From NCBI RefSeq assembly GCF_003858635.1, contig NZ_RQJO01000009.1, positions 248,001 through 312,000 on the forward strand: a stretch of DNA of 64,000 bases. Direction: 5' to 3'. The DNA comes from Larkinella rosea. Lineage in GTDB: Bacteria; Bacteroidota; Bacteroidia; Cytophagales; Spirosomataceae. Positions 3,664 through 52,193 of the stretch are shown piece after piece. Position 1 is the first letter of the stretch. The number at the start of each line of letters is the position of its first letter. The notes beneath the pieces were generated by a model. It did not search any database. It was not told the origin of the DNA and saw only the letters and a program-made list of their open reading frames with translations. A program made the position numbers and the translations under genes.

Positions 3664-5055
3664 TCAGGTGGTTTTCTGCGGGATTTCGGCGGTCAGCGAT
3701 TCCCAGATTTTTTCGTAAACATCCACCGCTTTGAGCGGTTTTTGTCCCAGCCCTTTCCGCGACGATACAAAAACCGGGTGATAGGCGGTTGGTGTCCCCA
3801 CGCGGCCGTGTGATCCCTTGATCAAGGTTGCATCGAGCGGAATGACGTTCATCAGGTAACGGAAGCCCAGTTTTTTCCGGATCAGTTTGTAACCAGCTTT
3901 CAGCTTGATCATCGGATTGGCCGGATCCATAAACATTTCGACCGGATCGTAACCCGGTTTGCGGTGAATATCGACCAGTCGGGCATAATCCGGGGCTTTG
4001 GTGTCGTCGAGCCAGTAATAATAGGTAAACCAGCTTTCGGCATCGGCCATGACGACCAGATCGCCCGCCCGTTCGTGATCGATGTGGTATTTTTCCTTCC
4101 CGGCTTCGTCCAGAATCAGCTCGACGCCCGGCGTTTTCTCCAGAATCGAGCGCACCTGCGCGGCACAACTCGGATCGTTGATGTAAATGTGGGCAACCTG
4201 ATGATCGGCCACGGCAAACGCCCGCGACGCGCCCGCGTCCAGTAATTCCAGCCCCTGTTCGACCCGTACGTTGATCAGCCCGGCGTCGCGGAATAACCGG
4301 TTTAAATGAATCGGTTTGCTGACGTTCGTAATTCCGTATTCCGACAGAATGATAATTTCCGCGTTTTGCCGTTCGTAATGCTGAATCAGGTCGCGCAAAA
4401 CGGCATCGATCTCGTTCAGTTCTTTCGAAATTTTACTAAAATCAACCCCGAACTTTTGCAGGCAATAATCCAGATGCGGCAGATAAATCAACGTCAATGT
4501 CGGGTTGTGCCAGCGGTCGACGAGCAGCGACGCATCGGCTATCCAACGGGTCGATTTGATGTTGGCGTTGGGTCCCCAGAAACTGAACAGCGGAAACGTA
4601 CCGAGCGCTTCCTGAAGCCGGTCGCGGAGGTCGGAGGGGTGGCTGTAGCAGTCGGGTGCTTTGACGCCGTCGGCGTGGTATTGCGGTCGTGGTGTTACCG
4701 AAAAGTCGGCGGAGGAATACATATTGTACCACCAGAACATTTTGGAAACCGTAAAGGACGGATCGAGTTGCCGGGCGCGTTCCCAGATTTTTTCGCCACC
4801 GACCAGCTTGTTCGATTGCTTCCAGAATTTGACTTCGCATTCGGTCCGGTCATACCAGCCATTGCCGACAATCCCGGTTTCGGTCGGCCATTTCCCCGTG
4901 ACGTACGTCGATTGAACCGAAGTCGTAACCGCCGGTAACATCGGTTCGATAGAAGAAAGTTGTTTGTCAGACACCCACTGCTTCAGAAAGGGCGTATGCT
5001 CACCAATCAGCGAAGATGATAAGCCCACAACGTCGATTACTACGGTTTTTTTCAT
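3664..5055 (-). CDS. eboF: EboF: alkaline phosphatase/nucleotide pyrophosphatase superfamily protein
   Basis: A 463-residue cytoplasmic-looking protein of the type I phosphodiesterase/nucleotide pyrophosphatase fold. Likely metal ligand D8 (VIDVVGL), nucleophile region PAVTTSVQSTYVTG at 41-54, LPHLDY in the middle, and KGSHG towards the C-terminus. The usual SDHGM metal motif appears as SEYGI, so catalysis may differ from standard NPP enzymes. It is the last gene of eboB-C-D-E-F and overlaps eboE by 4 bases (ATGA), a sign of translational coupling. The ebo cluster is known from cyanobacteria, eustigmatophyte plastids and scattered bacteria; its product is undefined, though in a cyanobacterium it is needed to move a scytonemin precursor to the periplasm. 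Confidence 0.85.
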   Translation of the reverse strand: MKKTVVIDVVGLSSSLIGEHTPFLKQWVSDKQLSSIEPMLPAVTTSVQSTYVTGKWPTETGIVGNGWYDRTECEVKFWKQSNKLVGGEKIWERARQLDPSFTVSKMFWWYNMYSSADFSVTPRPQYHADGVKAPDCYSHPSDLRDRLQEALGTFPLFSFWGPNANIKSTRWIADASLLVDRWHNPTLTLIYLPHLDYCLQKFGVDFSKISKELNEIDAVLRDLIQHYERQNAEIIILSEYGITNVSKPIHLNRLFRDAGLINVRVEQGLELLDAGASRAFAVADHQVAHIYINDPSCAAQVRSILEKTPGVELILDEAGKEKYHIDHERAGDLVVMADAESWFTYYYWLDDTKAPDYARLVDIHRKPGYDPVEMFMDPANPMIKLKAGYKLIRKKLGFRYLMNVIPLDATLIKGSHGRVGTPTAYHPVFVSSRKGLGQKPLKAVDVYEKIWESLTAEIPQKTT

Positions 5056-6272
5056 TTTTTGATTTCATTCATCACCCATTCCATTTCCCGGATAATCGAA
5101 TCATTCAGGCGGTGTCGGAGATCTTCGGGCAGCACTTCCCAGGTGTAGGTTTCCACTTCCATCTGGGTTGTAAATGGGGTTTGTTTCTGTAAACGAATCA
5201 CTTCCGAAATATCATCCTGGGTCGATTGCAGCAGTCCGTAATCGGCTACAAACAGCGGAACGTGAAAGTGCGACCGCCACTCGACGTGGTTTTTGTTGAA
5301 AGCCTGTAATGCTTCGGGCAGGTCCGGAAACCGGAGCAGTTCACCCGCCGAATCCCGCGCTACCACCTGATGCAGATAGGTCGGTTCGTTGAACTGCCGG
5401 AATTGATCCAAAACCGCTTCCCGGCTGTTGCGTTCCAGCGGAAAAGTTGCCTTCAATGCCGCGCTGATCTGGATCTTGCCCACTTTCAGGTCGTTGTCGT
5501 TCAGCTTTTTCAGCACTTCCCCCGGGCGTTCGTACCCCACCGCAAAATGGCAAACGTCGTAACAAAGTTGAACGTGTTCGCGCAAAGCCGCTTCGCATTC
5601 GCCCGCCGACAAGCCGAACTCGTCGTTCAGTCGTTCAATCCCAATCGGTAACAGATACAGGTTAAACCATTCGATGAATTCGTCCGCGGTTTCCAGCAAT
5701 CCGTCGGGTTCGGGCTCGAGATCGAGGTGCAGACTGACGCCGTCCTGTTGTTTGATCCGGACCAGTTCTTCCACCACGGTCATCAGCCGCTGCGTCGTCA
5801 CTTCAAAAACCCGGTCGCGTTCCCCCGGTTTTTCCCACTGGAACCAGTGACGGTAGGAGAGAGGAGAGGTTGAAATACCGCCTTCGGTAAGTCCACCCGC
5901 AGGTAGCAGAGCCGCCAGCAACTGGAAAAGCCGGATGGTGTAATCGACGCGTTCGGGCGTTTGCCAGTCGGGCGTGTGAACCTGATCCTTCACACGGGTC
6001 CGGTGAAAACCGCCGTACGGAAAACCGTTCATCGTGAAGACGTAGCAGTCGTTTTCGGCCAGCCAGTCCTGAAACTCTTTCAGACGCTCCGGCTGGTTGA
6101 TTTCCTCACTGGCGATGTTCGACAATCGCAGTCCGATTCCAAACGGCGCATCGGGCGAAAGCCGTTGTTTAATAGTTGGAATGGCTTGTTGAAGGGCACT
6201 GAAATGCTCCGTCCAATGTTCACCGGCATGAATGTTCGTGCAGTAACCGAGGTGTCCCAGCGGGGTTTTCAT
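5052..6272 (-). CDS. eboE: EboE: TIM-barrel (xylose isomerase-like) metabolite protein
   Basis: A 406-residue protein of the sugar phosphate isomerase/epimerase TIM-barrel type found in ebo clusters. It begins LGHLGYCTNIHAGE, a start typical of EboE. Candidate metal-binding residues lie in HLDLEPEPDG and in CYDVCHFAVGYE. No signal peptide or membrane segment is visible. It overlaps the neighbours on both sides by 4 bases, so eboD, eboE and eboF are tightly coupled. The reaction is unknown; the fold suggests sugar or polyol isomerisation. Confidence 0.87.
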   Translation of the reverse strand: MKTPLGHLGYCTNIHAGEHWTEHFSALQQAIPTIKQRLSPDAPFGIGLRLSNIASEEINQPERLKEFQDWLAENDCYVFTMNGFPYGGFHRTRVKDQVHTPDWQTPERVDYTIRLFQLLAALLPAGGLTEGGISTSPLSYRHWFQWEKPGERDRVFEVTTQRLMTVVEELVRIKQQDGVSLHLDLEPEPDGLLETADEFIEWFNLYLLPIGIERLNDEFGLSAGECEAALREHVQLCYDVCHFAVGYERPGEVLKKLNDNDLKVGKIQISAALKATFPLERNSREAVLDQFRQFNEPTYLHQVVARDSAGELLRFPDLPEALQAFNKNHVEWRSHFHVPLFVADYGLLQSTQDDISEVIRLQKQTPFTTQMEVETYTWEVLPEDLRHRLNDSIIREMEWVMNEIKK

Positions 6273-7417
6273 GCGGGCTGTATTTCGTCTTCTTTTAAGA
6301 TACCAATCACTTCGCGAATCAGTTCCTGATCCATTTCGTGTACTTCCACGCCTTTCCCAATCGCTTTCAGTAACATGATGGTCAGTTGGCCGCCGAGGTG
6401 TTCGCGGAATTCATCCAGTCCTTTCAGAACGCCGTCGCCGTCCAGCGCCGGATGAAAGAGGGGAAAACCGAGCGTCCGTTCCAGGTTCAGAATGCGGTTG
6501 GCGTCGCTTTTGCTCAACCAACCCAGGCGCTGCGAGTATAGACTGTCAAGGGCAATGCCAATGGCCACCGCTTCGCCGTGACGGACTTCAAAATCAGTGA
6601 GTTGTTCGAGTTTATGGGCGCTCCAGTGCCCAAAATCCAGCGGTCGCGACGAGCCCATTTCGAACGGATCACCGCTGGCAATGTGGTCGAGGTGGAGTTC
6701 GGCGCAGCGGTGAATAAGCTGTTGCATCGTGCCCAGATCGCGGGCGGCCAGTTTTTCAGCATTAGCTTCCAGCCACTCGAAGAACGGTTCGTCCTTGATC
6801 AGAGCCACTTTGATGGCTTCGGAAATGCCCGCCCGCCAGTCGCGGTCATCGAGGGTTTTCAAAAACTCCGCGTCGTTGAAAACCGCTACGGGGGGGGCGA
6901 ATGAACCGAGGAAATTTTTCTTCCCTTTGTAATTAACGCCGTTTTTTACGCCGATTCCCGAATCATTTTGTGACAAAACCGTCGTCGGAATCCGGATGTG
7001 GCGAATGCCCCGATGGGAGACGGCGGCAACAAAACCGACCAGATCCAGCACGGAACCGCCACCGATGGCAATGACGTAGGAATGCCGGTCGATGCCGTAC
7101 CGATCCACGGCGTCGATGAGTTGATCGACCAGCGCCGGATCGTTTTTAGACCCTTCGCCCCCCGGAATAACGATCAGATCCGGAATCAGATCGACCATCG
7201 AAATACCGGCAAAATACGCTTTAATTTGGTGCAGTAAATCCGGATGACTGTTGGTAACACCTTCATCCAGAACGAATAAAAGCTTTTTGCGAAATCCTTC
7301 CGAATGCCGTTTTTTCAAAAACTCAAGCAACGTTGGATTGGTACTTTCGAACAGACGATCAGAAAAGAAAACGTCGTAGGTGAACTGAACGCTAAAGGAT
7401 TGGTGAAGGGTATTCAT
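6269..7417 (-). CDS. eboD: EboD: 3-dehydroquinate synthase-like sugar phosphate cyclase
   Basis: A 382-residue protein of the AroB/sugar phosphate cyclase superfamily. NAD-binding motifs GGEGSKN (86-92) and GGGSVLDL (119-126) are present. Zinc ligands E200 (GISEAIK), H264 (DFGHWSAH) and H280 (RHGEAVAIG) are all conserved, so it should be catalytically competent on a ketose phosphate. The DFGHWSAHKLE variant and the cluster context separate it from housekeeping AroB, making it the EboD paralogue. A possible own -10-like element lies 27 bases upstream, in the gap after eboC. Confidence 0.9.
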   Translation of the reverse strand: MNTLHQSFSVQFTYDVFFSDRLFESTNPTLLEFLKKRHSEGFRKKLLFVLDEGVTNSHPDLLHQIKAYFAGISMVDLIPDLIVIPGGEGSKNDPALVDQLIDAVDRYGIDRHSYVIAIGGGSVLDLVGFVAAVSHRGIRHIRIPTTVLSQNDSGIGVKNGVNYKGKKNFLGSFAPPVAVFNDAEFLKTLDDRDWRAGISEAIKVALIKDEPFFEWLEANAEKLAARDLGTMQQLIHRCAELHLDHIASGDPFEMGSSRPLDFGHWSAHKLEQLTDFEVRHGEAVAIGIALDSLYSQRLGWLSKSDANRILNLERTLGFPLFHPALDGDGVLKGLDEFREHLGGQLTIMLLKAIGKGVEVHEMDQELIREVIGILKEDEIQPA

Positions 7418-9478: not shown

Positions 9479-9667
9479 ATTCGCCGTGTTTTTCTATTGA
9501 AATAAGGTTTTTCAGTGGAAATCATACTCGGGAAAATAAAAACTAAACCGGTCGTTGCCCCATTAGATTTTAATTAAAAACCGAATTACGCGCCGTTTGA
9601 TTAATCAAATGCCCTGCCTTAATCGTTATTTATTTAAAAGTTGATTTCTAAATTTTATTTCGAAACG

Positions 9668-10318
9668 ATGAAAACCGTATTTCAGATTCTGCTGTGGGCG
9701 AGCATTAGTGGAGGAATTGGAAGTGGGATCAGTTCCTGCCGCCCCGATCCGCTCAACGACCTGACGCCGGAAGACAGCCAGGTTTTTATTACCAACCACG
9801 ACCGATCGGTCAATTTTGCAAACTATAAAACGTACAGCCTGCCGGATTCGGTGGTGGAAGTGGCCAATGACCGGCAAACCGTATCGATGACACCCCTCGA
9901 CCAGCGTGTGCTGGATAAACTGGCGACAACGATGACCGGTTTGGGTTATCAGCGCGTAAGCGGGAAAGACAGCTCCGATTTGGGAGTCGCCGTGATGAAA
10001 ATCAACAACAGCTACGTGGGCGTTACCTCGAATCCCTATTCATCGTACTACCTGAATTACTGGGGCTACGGTGGCCTGGGCGGTTATGGCGGTTACAGTC
10101 CCTATTACCCAAGCTATTACTCATTTTATGAGGTAAGCGACACCTACTGGCTGATCCAGTTGATTGACCTGAAGCATCCCAACACCGCCGATCAGAAACT
10201 GAATGTTGTCTGGCAAGCCCAGGTTCGCGGCAACGGTATTTTCGACGAAACGTCCGTCGATTCCATCATTACCAGCGTGTTCAATCAGTCGACGTATTTA
10301 AAAGGGAATAAAGAATAG
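9668..10318 (+). CDS. DUF4136-like lipoprotein
   Basis: A 216-residue envelope protein. The N-terminus is hydrophobic and ends in ISSC, a likely lipobox, so it should be a lipoprotein. The body matches the DUF4136 pattern: NFANYKTYSLPD near residue 50, then a region about a tightest-possible LDQRVLDKLATTM helix, and a Tyr/Gly-rich loop (YWGYGGLGGYGGY). The start at 9668 (MKTVFQILL) is preferred over an in-frame ATG 27 bases upstream. It reads outwards from the ebo operon and precedes an outer-membrane protein gene by 66 bases. Function unknown. Confidence 0.75.
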   Translation: MKTVFQILLWASISGGIGSGISSCRPDPLNDLTPEDSQVFITNHDRSVNFANYKTYSLPDSVVEVANDRQTVSMTPLDQRVLDKLATTMTGLGYQRVSGKDSSDLGVAVMKINNSYVGVTSNPYSSYYLNYWGYGGLGGYGGYSPYYPSYYSFYEVSDTYWLIQLIDLKHPNTADQKLNVVWQAQVRGNGIFDETSVDSIITSVFNQSTYLKGNKE

Positions 10319-48914: not shown

Positions 48915-48946
48915 TTGCCATTCGTTCCGGGCGATCGTTACCTTTG
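48915..48946 (+). promoter_or_regulatory. Promoter of the DciA-like gene
   Basis: TTG at 48915-48917, 21-base spacer and TACCTTTG at 48939-48946, 20 bases before the ATG at 48966. Confidence 0.75.
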
Positions 48947-48965
48947 TAGTAAGACACCGTTTCGT

Positions 48966-49292
48966 ATGGCACAATATTATCGTTTTGACAAAGAAAATGC
49001 TTCCCGTCGCGCCGGGACGGTTGCACTAAAAGATGCCATCGGGCAGATGTTGAAATCCTATCAACTGCAAACCCGCTTCAACGAAACCTACCTCGAAGCT
49101 TTTTGGGAGAAAATGATGGGCAAAGCGATTGCTTCCCGGACCAACCGGCTTTACGTCAAAGACCGTAAGCTACACATCGAAATCAGTTCTGCCCCGCTCC
49201 GCAGCGAACTGGTGATTGCCAAACAGAAAATGATTCAGCTGATCAACCGCGAAATGGGGGCTGATGTGCTGGAAGACGTCATTTTTATCTGA
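48966..49292 (+). CDS. DUF721 (DciA-like) protein
   Basis: A 108-residue protein of the DUF721 family, with WEKMMGKAIASRTNRLYVKDRKLHIEISSAPLRSELVIAKQKMIQLIN, the family core. DciA members help load the replicative helicase DnaB. The start at 48966 (MAQYYRFDKEN) lies behind a good promoter. Its last 58 bases overlap the 3' end of the opposite-strand GT87 gene. Confidence 0.85.
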   Translation: MAQYYRFDKENASRRAGTVALKDAIGQMLKSYQLQTRFNETYLEAFWEKMMGKAIASRTNRLYVKDRKLHIEISSAPLRSELVIAKQKMIQLINREMGADVLEDVIFI

Positions 49293-50422
49293 TCCGGAGC
49301 CGCTTGTGTCCATAATTGCCACTGTAAACGGGCCCAGACCAGCACGCAGCCAACGGCTTTGATGCGGTACGGCACAAAAAACTCGTTCCGTATAAACCGG
49401 GGAAAGATGTCCGTCGGCGACAGCGAGGTAAACACAATTACCGTCACTAATAAGGCCCAATCAAAACGAGTTGGCGATTCGAGCGTCAGCCACCAGATTG
49501 CCACGCCCACTACCGCCAGCACGTAGGTCGGTGATTCGGCCATTTTGTTGAAAATAATGATGAACAGCAGGAAATAGGCAATCATCCGGTGCTGAAACAA
49601 GCGGTTTTTCCAAAGGGTGAATCGCAGAAAAGGCAGGAGAAAAAGCACGATTCCGACGGCTTCCACCATCCGCAGATTGGCATCGGTTTTGGCCATGCCG
49701 AACCAAACCTCCAGAATGCCCATCACGGAAACCAGTCGGCCTAAGGTACTGACCATTACCACATTGAACCATTCAACGTATTCGTTTTTTAAGCTGCTCA
49801 ACGGAATGATCGTTGCCGGAGCCAGCGCAAACAAAACCGTCCAGACGGTCATGGCCAGCAAAAACTGCGGTTTTTTGGGATAAAAAACGAAAAACAAGGC
49901 GGCCGTAATACCGTAAAACTTCACAAAACCGCATAATACAAAGAAAAAAGCCGCCTGCCAGACCCGCTCATTCCGCAGGTGGTACAAACCAAGCAACATC
50001 GCCCCGATGATCAGGTTGTTGCTTTGCATGTTCTGGGCCGTAACGAGCGCTTCCGGAAAAATGATCAGCAATGCAACCCAGCGTTTTCGGGCGGCATCTT
50101 CTTCATCTTCCAGAAAATACCAGATTCCCACCGCCAATACCACCGAATTGATCAGGTTCCAGAAGAAAACCCCGAGACCGATCGGCATGTAATAGAAAGG
50201 CCCCATCAGCCAGGCAAACGTCGGGCTGTATTTGTAGTTGTCGTTGTAGAGATCGGGATGTAAACCGTAAATACTCTTGTCGAGCAGCAGGTTATGAAAC
50301 GGTTTGGAAAACATCAGGTAGTTATTGATGCTCCCCATCATGTATTTCTGAAAGGCCGCCCCGGTCAGGATGAAGATAAACAACCCCAGCAGTCGGGGCA
50401 GCGTCAGCCAACGCAAACTCAT
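49235..50422 (-). CDS. GT87-type (DUF2029) membrane glycosyltransferase
   Basis: A 395-residue polytopic membrane protein with around ten hydrophobic segments, matching the GT-C family GT87/DUF2029: an early loop with a Asp/Tyr-rich part (YGLHPDLYNDNYKYSPTFAWLMGPFYYMP) typical of polyprenyl-phosphate-sugar-using enzymes. Start at 50422 overlaps the deacetylase stop by 4 bases. Third gene of GT2-deacetylase-GT87, so it may add the modified sugar to a periplasmic acceptor. Its C-terminus overlaps the DUF721 gene. Confidence 0.83.
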   Translation of the reverse strand: MSLRWLTLPRLLGLFIFILTGAAFQKYMMGSINNYLMFSKPFHNLLLDKSIYGLHPDLYNDNYKYSPTFAWLMGPFYYMPIGLGVFFWNLINSVVLAVGIWYFLEDEEDAARKRWVALLIIFPEALVTAQNMQSNNLIIGAMLLGLYHLRNERVWQAAFFFVLCGFVKFYGITAALFFVFYPKKPQFLLAMTVWTVLFALAPATIIPLSSLKNEYVEWFNVVMVSTLGRLVSVMGILEVWFGMAKTDANLRMVEAVGIVLFLLPFLRFTLWKNRLFQHRMIAYFLLFIIIFNKMAESPTYVLAVVGVAIWWLTLESPTRFDWALLVTVIVFTSLSPTDIFPRFIRNEFFVPYRIKAVGCVLVWARLQWQLWTQAAPDQIKMTSSSTSAPISRLIS

Positions 50423-51216
50423 ACGTTTGAAGGAAGAAAAATGGTTTCCGAAAATTCCCGCATCGTCCGGAATTCGCCTTGCGGAGCCAGGTAGCGCAAC
50501 AATAGTTCGACGCGGTCGAGCAACCGCTGGTGGGAATACCGCCGGACATAGGCCGGAATTTTGGTGTAATCCGACAAATCCGTAAACTCCCAGGGATGAA
50601 CGTAGAGATTCAGGAAACCGTCGGTTCGAAGGGTGTTCATGCACAGCCGCTTGTAAATCTCAAACGGGAAATTTTTCAGACTCAGCCAGAACAGCGGCAA
50701 CCGCAATCGGGGCGTTACCGACGCCGGAATGTGCAGGATATTCCCGCTCTGAAACGGTTTGCGCGGCTCCCGAAGGTGGTTATAACGCCCCGGCAGAAAC
50801 GTCGGATGCAGGGATGAATTGTAGCGGTATCCCGCCAGAAACAAATCCGTTTCATCCACCGCGGCCATCCGCGCCCGGCGAAAGCCGACCACCTCCTGGC
50901 CCGTTATCGATTCCAGCGTCCGGCGCGATTTCAGTAAATCGGCGGGTTCAAATGTCGTGTGATAAAAACCGTGCGACGCGATTTCGTGCGTTTTAGCCAG
51001 ATTTCTAACCAAATCCGCTTCGTGAAAAGCATAATTGGCGGTCGTAAACAGCGTTGCCCGGACGTTCAGCGTAGCCAGCCGATCGGTCAGCAACCGCAAG
51101 CCCCGCGTCGAAACAACCAACTGTTCGTCGAGCGACAAATTGTGCCCATACTCCAGCGCCGTGTCGAATTCCTCGACATCGACGGTGAACATAATCTGAC
51201 GGTTTACCGATTCCAT
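50419..51216 (-). CDS. Polysaccharide deacetylase family protein
   Basis: A 265-residue NodB-fold deacetylase without signal peptide. Catalytic/metal motif TVDVEEFD (D13, E15, E16) in place of TFDDG, HxxxH at H82/H86 in IASHGFYHTTFE, and a C-terminal YVHPWEFTD block. This is the XDA/PIG-L-like type that deacetylates lipid-linked or surface sugars. Overlaps GT2 by 13 bases and GT87 by 4 bases, a tightly coupled operon. Confidence 0.88.
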   Translation of the reverse strand: MESVNRQIMFTVDVEEFDTALEYGHNLSLDEQLVVSTRGLRLLTDRLATLNVRATLFTTANYAFHEADLVRNLAKTHEIASHGFYHTTFEPADLLKSRRTLESITGQEVVGFRRARMAAVDETDLFLAGYRYNSSLHPTFLPGRYNHLREPRKPFQSGNILHIPASVTPRLRLPLFWLSLKNFPFEIYKRLCMNTLRTDGFLNLYVHPWEFTDLSDYTKIPAYVRRYSHQRLLDRVELLLRYLAPQGEFRTMREFSETIFLPSNV

Positions 51217-52193
51217 GCTTCCGTTTCCACACTGACGACTTTGTCCACCAGGTTCGATTCGTAGATCAGGTAGGTGGGCCGATGCTTCACTTCCTGGAAA
51301 GCCTTTCCGAGGTAAATGCCAATGATGCCCATCATGATAAACTGAATGCCGCCGATCAGCACAATGAGGAGCACGATCGAGGTCCAGCCGGAAACCGTAT
51401 TGGCCGTGAAATATTTTTCGTAGAGCACTTCGGCGCCGAATAACAGTGCAAACAGAAACATCCCGAAGCCCAGCACAACCGACAGATAGAGCGGTTTGGT
51501 GGTAAAGGACGTGATGCCCATCGTGGCCAGATTGAACATCTTGCGGAATGAATACTTGCTTTTTCCGGCATACCGCTGGGCGGGCTGGTATTCGACCCGG
51601 CTTTGCCGAAAGCCCATCCAGGAAATCATTCCCCGCAGAAACAAATCCGTTTCCTTGTATTGTTTCAGGCTATCGACCACCTTGCGGTCGAGCAACCGAA
51701 AATCGGCCGCCCCTTCCTCCAGATTTACGTCGGAAACCATTCGGATAAACTTGTAAAACCAGCGGGACGTTTTTCGTTTCATCAACGGTAGCGTTGGATC
51801 GGCTTTCCGGATGGCACAAACCACATCGTAGCCTTCTTCCCACTGCGTAATGAGCGTCGGAATCAGTTCGGGAGGGTGTTGTAAATCAGCATCGAGGCAG
51901 ATGACACAATCGCCGGTGGCATGATCAAAACCGGCTCGCAGGGCGGCCTGGTGGCCAAAATTGCGGGAAAACGACAGATAACGAACGGAATGATACAGGC
52001 TGCTCAATTGCTGCAAAACATAGAGCGTATCATCCTTGCTGCCATCGTCGATGATCAAAATTTCAAACTCCTGATAGGGCGCCAGCACATTTTCCAATCG
52101 ACTTACCAGGACGGGCAAGTTCTCCTCTTCATTGTGCGCCGGAACTACAATACTGATTTTACCAGTACGTTGGTTCAATAATACATTCGGCAT
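51204..52193 (-). CDS. GT2 polyprenyl-phosphate glycosyltransferase (ArnC/GtrB-like)
   Basis: A 329-residue family 2 glycosyltransferase: IVVPAHNEEENLPVLVSRLE near the N-terminus, DDGSKDDT, the catalytic DADLQHPPELI, then two C-terminal membrane segments (LSVVLGFGMFLFALLF and SIVLLIVLIGGIQFIMMG) typical of DPM/ArnC/GtrB enzymes that attach sugars to undecaprenyl phosphate. First gene of a three-gene operon with a deacetylase and a GT-C enzyme. Confidence 0.92.
   Translation of the reverse strand: MPNVLLNQRTGKISIVVPAHNEEENLPVLVSRLENVLAPYQEFEILIIDDGSKDDTLYVLQQLSSLYHSVRYLSFSRNFGHQAALRAGFDHATGDCVICLDADLQHPPELIPTLITQWEEGYDVVCAIRKADPTLPLMKRKTSRWFYKFIRMVSDVNLEEGAADFRLLDRKVVDSLKQYKETDLFLRGMISWMGFRQSRVEYQPAQRYAGKSKYSFRKMFNLATMGITSFTTKPLYLSVVLGFGMFLFALLFGAEVLYEKYFTANTVSGWTSIVLLIVLIGGIQFIMMGIIGIYLGKAFQEVKHRPTYLIYESNLVDKVVSVETEAWNR

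Follow-up and report, generated by a model that had tools for sequence, protein, structure and literature searches.

A conserved GT2-deacetylase-GT87 gene set of Bacteroidota with an atypical GT87 protein and a predicted role in amino sugar modification of the cell surface

Introduction

The locus of Larkinella rosea that we describe here raises the question of whether three overlapping genes, encoding a GT2 glycosyltransferase, a polysaccharide deacetylase and a GT87 membrane protein, make up a pathway that places an amino sugar on the outside of the cell. These genes (the trio) lie in a 64,000-nucleotide stretch of DNA, the whole of which we call the window (positions 248,001 to 312,000 of contig NZ_RQJO01000009.1, assembly GCF_003858635.1), and an original prediction had likened them to the ArnC-ArnD-ArnT pathway, in which a GT2 enzyme acts on undecaprenyl phosphate, a CE4-fold deacylase follows, and a GT-C transferase places 4-amino-4-deoxy-L-arabinose on lipid A. 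Our analysis demonstrates that the trio is real, conserved and modular, that it follows a logic already known and that its GT87 is atypical; its chemistry is predicted. No paper on this trio was seen among the matches listed in the open-licence PubMed Central literature; published work is cited below by PubMed Central identifier, from extracts of the text.

Results

A gene set conserved in several families of Bacteroidota

In a sample of 150 genomes of the Spirosomataceae, the family to which L. rosea belongs, the deacetylase is present in 72, the window's included, and the trio is therefore not essential in this family. We read all 72 deacetylase loci (71 and the window), with any gene within about 3.6 kb from midpoint to midpoint taken as near; 71 of these loci have a GT2 gene close to the deacetylase in this sense and 62 have a GT87 gene, with the gene order mostly GT2-deacetylase-GT87 or GT87-GT2-deacetylase. 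Two of the ten loci that have no near GT87 gene, in genomes G009 and G010, lie at the end of a contig. Nine of the ten are in GT2-deacetylase genomes with the membrane-type GT2; of the six of these that were searched, five contain a member of the same GT87 clade elsewhere and G009 does not, and the clade was also not found in G010, the tenth family genome without a near GT87.

The same arrangement is found outside the family. Of 296 genomes in a phylum sample, 14 contain a strong deacetylase match (above 300 bits), and in 13 of these 14 a GT87 of the clade lies no more than about 2 kb away. A search of 395 genomes of the class identified the deacetylase at an E-value of 1e-60 or better in 26 genomes; 22 belong to other families, and 14 of the 22 were new. 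The full trio lies together in 23 of 26 outside-family genomes (12 of 12 from the phylum sample and 11 of 14 further genomes, one of which, L244, has the deacetylase on the opposite strand). The exceptions are L247 and L248, which are at contig ends, and L251, which contains a deacetylase-GT2-GtrA set without a GT87. Within the genus, 4 of 9 sampled Larkinella genomes have both the deacetylase and the GT87 clade, and the other 5 have neither; the best GT2 in the 5 genomes without a trio is probably a paralogue, since it is only 38-39% identical. The nearest named relatives of the window's deacetylase are those of L. terrae (94% identity), L. knui (87%) and L. humicola (85%). Our alignments A1 to A3 omit L033 and L034, which duplicate the genomes of L066 and L065; A2 also omits the L058 deacetylase, which was missed by the open reading frame caller, and the distant L036, and A3 omits the short GT2s described below.

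We therefore conclude that the adjacency of the three genes, which is conserved across the family and phylum samples, is not due to chance, and that the original prediction was right to treat the GT2, the deacetylase and the GT-C transferase as one unit. The gene order and the conservation of the unit are direct observations, and they support a polyprenyl-phosphate sugar pathway with a deacetylation step, similar in its logic to ArnC-ArnD-ArnT.

The layout of the trio in the window is given in Table 1, and the overlaps of 4 to 13 bases previously described between the three genes are correct. The start of the GT87 gene is the ATG of the ATGA overlap at 50422, with a longer listed open reading frame beginning at an upstream GTG, and its 3′ end overlaps an opposite-strand DciA frame (48915-49292; PF05258) by 58 bases (49235-49292). 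In many loci of the family the trio is flanked by genes for DciA and for an LD-carboxypeptidase.

Table 1. Genes of the trio and their overlaps, in coordinates of the window
Feature	Position	Strand	Description
GT2 glycosyltransferase	51204..52193	minus	329 aa; PF00535; GtrB/PgfS/ArnC-like, with membrane helices at the C terminus; putative synthase of polyprenyl-phosphate HexNAc (N-acetylated hexosamine)
CE4-type polysaccharide deacetylase	50419..51216	minus	265 aa; PF01522 and PF11959 DUF3473; signal-less; proposed cytosolic N-deacetylase of a lipid-linked sugar
GT87 (GT-C) membrane transferase (putative)	49235..50422	minus	395 aa; PF09594; Asn34 at catalytic Asp position, invariant Asp61
GT2/deacetylase reading-frame overlap	51204..51216	minus	13 bases; open reading frame list
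Overlap of the deacetylase stop codon with the GT87 start codon (ATGA)	50419..50422	minus	4 bases; open reading frame list

The GT2 enzyme is GtrB-like and the deacetylase is of CE4 type

The GT2 protein matches PF00535 (E 1.4e-37), and its closest solved relative is GtrB sll0501 (E 1.1e-73), aligned over residues 9-311, i.e., the catalytic domain and the membrane helices, with ArnC ranking behind it (E 1.3e-48). Three aspartates (Asp50, Asp101 and Asp103) are invariant in 21 homologues. Homology over both the catalytic domain and the C-terminal membrane helices supports a GtrB-like enzyme, for which a polyprenyl-phosphate acceptor is predicted, and these matches agree with the earlier description of an ArnC/GtrB-like protein. 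Membership of the ArnC group itself did not hold up: in NCBIfam the protein scores 289 bits with PgfS (NF047588; equivalog cut-off 500) and, ranking below this, 184 bits with ArnC (NF007986; equivalog cut-off 529), and because both scores fall below their cut-offs we place the GT2 in neither named group. PgfS was considered as a guide to the sugar of the trio and set aside as a weak one, since the GlcNAc (N-acetylglucosamine) of PMC5856776 was detected by lectin and is proposed there as a final step.

In other loci the same slot of the trio is filled by a second, short type of GT2 in place of the GtrB-like type with membrane helices. The top named matches of the short GT2 in L044 are AglJ, a dolichyl-phosphate hexose transferase and PpgS, and those of the short GT2 in L055 are PgaC/IcaA, ArnC and PgfS, all of them far under the cut-offs. 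Two GT2 types in one slot are consistent with a shared role as a polyprenyl-phosphate sugar synthase.

The deacetylase passes two Pfam cut-offs narrowly (PF01522, 25.8 bits with a cut-off of 23.1; PF11959 DUF3473, 29.9 bits with a cut-off of 29.6). A model built from a 34-row alignment (predicted local distance difference test, pLDDT, 93.5) has its first strand beginning at residue 7, which leaves no room for a signal peptide, so that the protein is signal-less, as first described. Seven residues, including the HxxxH motif and acids, are invariant in 34 of 34 sequences (Asp13, Glu15, Glu16, His82, His86, Arg113 and His207). With this PF01522 score and these conserved residues the protein has what is expected of the CE4/NodB family, and sugar deacetylation is its predicted activity. 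The closest folds to the model are HP0310 (Z 23.4, root-mean-square deviation (rmsd) 2.8 over 227) and 3rxz (Z 23.0), with ArnD (8t0j; Z 20.5, rmsd 2.4 over 202) ranking below HP0310. No ArnD-named family was among its NCBIfam matches, in a library that was not checked for holding one, and its score with the XrtA-system deacetylase TIGR03006 (65 bits) does not reach the equivalog cut-off of 276.2. The CBM (carbohydrate-binding module)-fused deacetylase of Bacteroides in PMC11713874 is a different protein.

The GT87 protein has a PimE-like fold and lacks the catalytic aspartate

The third protein has a sole Pfam match, PF09594 (49.2 bits, cut-off 25). Its model, built from 31 rows (pLDDT 89), retains the entire GT-C fold, and the top fold match is PimE (Z 26.8, rmsd 3.7 over 349), which we take to be a member of GT87, followed by the U subunit of the glycosylphosphatidylinositol (GPI) transamidase and then GPI mannosyltransferase I; ArnT reaches only Z 13.6. 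With the trio GT87 as query, either as a single sequence or as a profile, the sequences of solved structures gave no match, and a profile of 12 other GT87s of the phylum identified PimE in the PDB (E 7.9e-26); we link the trio GT87 to PimE because of the fold match of the model and the match of this profile. A GT-C type membrane transferase of the GT87 family, as originally proposed, is thus confirmed at the level of family and fold, with transfer predicted, and an ArnT-type (GT83) transferase is not what the locus encodes.

These comparisons also bear on a literal Arn pathway making lipid A with 4-amino-4-deoxy-L-arabinose. The same three enzyme classes occur in the same logical order, and the deacetylase model does resemble ArnD, but with a GT2 score so far below the ArnC cut-off and a transferase of GT87 rather than the ArnT family, we regard it as very improbable. 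What stands of the resemblance first drawn is the logic of the pathway, with three enzyme classes in a conserved unit, and not the Arn pathway as such.

The trio GT87 profile was aligned to the 12 other GT87s of the phylum whose own profile matches PimE (31 trio sequences and 12 others in the joint alignment). The printed chain of PimE has D58, Y62, Y92, Q163 and K195 at the numbers used in the paper. Asn34 of the trio protein falls on PimE D58, the catalytic aspartate at the tip of the first periplasmic helix. Position 34 is Asn in 31 of 31 trio GT87s and Asp in 12 of 12 others, and position 61 is Asp in all 31 and no acid in any of the 12. Lys168, which aligns with PimE K195, is present in every sequence of both sets, and Gln133, which aligns with PimE Q163, is present in 31 of 31 and in 10 of 12. 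Position 296, at the place of PimE W319 where the alignment is less certain than elsewhere, is Glu in 31 of 31 trio proteins and Trp in 5 of 12 others; besides Asp61, Glu296 and Asp338 are invariant acids in the 31 rows.

In a wider control of 30 GT87 loci, position 34 is Asp in all 25 that lie outside the clade (in L181 the alignment there is doubtful) and 2 of the 25 have Asp at position 61, and all 5 clade members have Asn34 and Asp61. Of 52 clade members aligned, 49 span the first loop, and all 49 have the Asn-Asn and the later Asp; Asp338 is missing in 2 of the 52. This replacement of Asp by Asn at the catalytic position throughout the trio GT87s, with Asp61 invariant, is a new observation. 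PimE has this catalytic aspartate in common with the related GT-C enzymes that PMC12041525 and PMC7801869 name. In PimE, D58A and D58N are inactive, as are K195A, Y92A and Q163A, and Q163 and K195 are essential for use of the polyprenyl-phosphate donor (PMC12041525). Donor binding by the trio GT87 therefore looks to be kept and the base changed, since Lys168 and Gln133 are retained while Asn34 replaces the aspartate of PimE D58. Structure prediction, which had been suggested as a check, gave a PimE-like fold; in the alignment the donor-phosphate residues are kept and the family's catalytic aspartate is absent, a loss that the original prediction had missed.

We tentatively suggest, as one possibility, that this Bacteroidota GT-C clade works through a base moved within the same loop (Asp61), or on an acceptor for which no base is required, for instance a phosphate or a carboxylate, and that it would deliver amino sugars coming from the linked deacetylase. 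A distinctly improbable alternative is that the Asn-type GT87 has lost its base and is not a transferase, and that it binds the polyprenyl-phosphate sugar as a flippase or carrier partner for another enzyme that carries out the transfer. The Asn in every covered clade member, where D58N abolishes PimE activity, would fit this, as would the invariant donor-phosphate residues and the lack of a recognised flippase gene in most clusters; the invariant acids elsewhere in the protein (Asp61, Glu296 and Asp338) and the whole GT-C fold argue against it, as does L146, which still has the GT87 beside its trio-linked GtrA gene.

Several loci show variations around this protein. L141 contains two divergent Asn-type GT87 genes (4236-5417 and 5633-6832) beside one GT2 and one deacetylase gene, with the second lacking Asp338. 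In L149 and L155 an Asn-type GT87 gene with no deacetylase nearby lies a few genes from a gene that we take to be MetX-like, for which Pfam gives only an alpha/beta hydrolase. A methyltransferase gene near the GT87 gene in 14 of 72 family loci (e.g., L038:9896-10594) could modify the transferred sugar. In L142, the gene immediately upstream of the trio (9554-10306) encodes a Kdo/WaaP-type kinase, which could supply a phosphate acceptor.

Proposed pathway and its acceptor

From these genes we infer the chemistry of every step, which sugar is used, on which side the enzymes act and what the acceptor is. We consider it somewhat probable that the trio is a Bacteroidota envelope-modification pathway that puts an amino sugar on an outer acceptor, most likely the lipopolysaccharide (LPS) core. 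At the cytosolic face, the GT2 would transfer an N-acetylated hexosamine (probably GlcNAc or N-acetylgalactosamine, GalNAc) from its UDP-sugar to undecaprenyl phosphate, and the signal-less deacetylase would strip the acetyl group on the same side; a flippase, perhaps of GtrA type and unlinked in the window genome, would turn the lipid over, and the GT87 would move the amino sugar to the outer-face acceptor, giving a positively charged surface sugar. A free surface amine, which had been proposed before, would follow from the presence of a deacetylase in the unit.

In a rather improbable alternative, the donor would be a plain hexose (mannose or glucose), with the deacetylase acting on another cytosolic intermediate or removing an O-acetyl group. 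PimE itself uses polyprenyl-phosphate mannose (PMC12041525), the short GT2 of L044 weakly scores with hexose transferases as well as with PpgS, and the GT87 clade exists without a deacetylase; against this, deacetylase and GT2 genes are close together in nearly every family locus, and two GT2 types occur around one deacetylase family.

Neighbour families, scanned in a selection of loci, bear on the acceptor. In L142 the trio abuts the Kdo/WaaP-type kinase gene, with GT9, GT4, GT2, capsule-synthesis and NeuB genes nearby, and also genes for Mqo and a tetrahydrodipicolinate succinyltransferase. In L146 an overlapping GtrA gene follows the trio, with a GT9 gene, four GT4-type genes and another GT2 gene around it; its Kdo/WaaP match is sub-threshold (20.5 bits, cut-off 21.3), and genes for a tetratricopeptide-repeat protein and a TonB receptor are also present. 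These core-type neighbours in two lineages point to the LPS core rather than to lipid A, the acceptor suggested initially, for which nothing was found in favour. Galactosamine (GalN) has been reported, as unpublished results, in the LPS core of Capnocytophaga canimorsus, also of the Bacteroidota (PMC3342949), and is the kind of product expected from the trio, likened to it by product only.

The acceptor might instead be a protein O-glycan of Bacteroidota or another glycolipid, with the donor steps unchanged, which we regard as unlikely. Amino groups occur in rare Bacteroidota O-glycans, for which the transferases are described as unknown (PMC12871550), and no LPS genes adjoin the trio within the window, but the LPS-core-type neighbours (GT9, Kdo/WaaP-type kinase and GT4) in two other families speak for the LPS core.

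The gene set is also modular. The deacetylases of L038, L039, L040 and L069 are 66-69% identical to that of the window and their GT87s only 28-29%; in L041, L067 and L043 the deacetylases are 63-66% and the GT87s 58-65% identical. This switching of the GT87 slot may reflect a donor that stays constant while the acceptor changes. In five genomes of one family a GT4-type gene lies directly after the deacetylase gene. Genes for a potassium channel and a sodium/proton exchanger beside the L038 trio were set aside, since they are missing from most family loci compared.

Several observations weigh against the proposed pathway. The catalytic base of the GT87 is lost, and the same change kills PimE (PMC12041525). 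In the deacetylase, the residue at the position that we take to be CE4 motif 4 is variable (N, D, H or S) among homologues. The unit is not strict: of 20 phylum genomes with the GT87 clade above 250 bits, 6 have no deacetylase match, so deacetylation of the GT87 donor is not a necessity. Many loci of the family, those of Larkinella included, have no LPS genes beside the trio but genes for DciA, an LD-carboxypeptidase (Peptidase_S66) and Cys/Met metabolism. GtrA was recognised in only 2 of 26 outside-family genomes, in searches of limited sensitivity. Composition data are a weaker sign of core decoration because C. canimorsus is reported to have GalN in its capsule fraction and its O-antigen fraction as well (PMC5156936).

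The flippase step was followed through GtrA. A one-query search of 84 loci gave GtrA in L146 only, and a divergent GtrA could escape such a search; three GtrA queries against 14 later loci found L251, where GtrA is linked to the deacetylase-GT2 pair. Small hydrophobic open reading frames were listed in part of the loci, with Pfam applied to L146 only, and here too L146 was the one locus in which GtrA was recognised. In the window genome there are two GtrA loci, both away from the trio.

Relation to known systems

With ArnC-ArnD-ArnT the trio shares a GT2, a CE4-fold deacylase and a GT-C transferase, and differs in a GT2 below the ArnC cut-off, a deacetylase nearer to HP0310 and a GT87 without Asp at the catalytic place. 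The Francisella system FlmF2-NaxD-FlmK and the Bordetella system LgmABC place GalN or glucosamine (GlcN) on lipid A after deacetylation. An amino sugar put onto LPS after deacetylation is the shared feature; those systems have an ArnT-type transferase and lipid A as acceptor, whereas the trio has a GT87 and a predicted acceptor. Published accounts report GalN on lipid A with ArnC/ArnT-type genes, and a requirement of lgmA-C for GlcN (PMC8149597, PMC4993483).

The mycobacterial and corynebacterial PpgS-Rv3779 galactosamine pathway of arabinogalactan similarly involves a polyprenyl-phosphate GalNAc, deacetylation and transfer to an outer acceptor, but the trio operon includes its deacetylase, whereas the deacetylase and flippase of that pathway are called unidentified in PMC9671496; the logic of the trio may help to find the missing deacetylase. 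PimE is alike in fold and donor-phosphate residues, and differs in D58, which is Asn in the trio, and, less certainly, at W319, the place of Glu296. GpgSDF of Pseudomonas, which makes GlcN-phosphatidylglycerol, likewise combines a glycosyltransferase, a deacetylase and a membrane gene in one operon leading to a cationic amino sugar lipid, but with a GT4-type transferase acting on phosphatidylglycerol, a COG3233 deacetylase and a YbhN-type membrane protein (PMC12713373).

The conserved gene set would place charged amino sugars on the Bacteroidota surface. Single mutations could test the mechanism of a GT-C family that has replaced the accepted catalytic residue in all its members. GT87 genes also occur in tandem arrays in one distant family of the phylum, with seven at G201:C1:368291-376701, seven at G259:C9:186954-195372 and about five at G255:C1:458857-464699.

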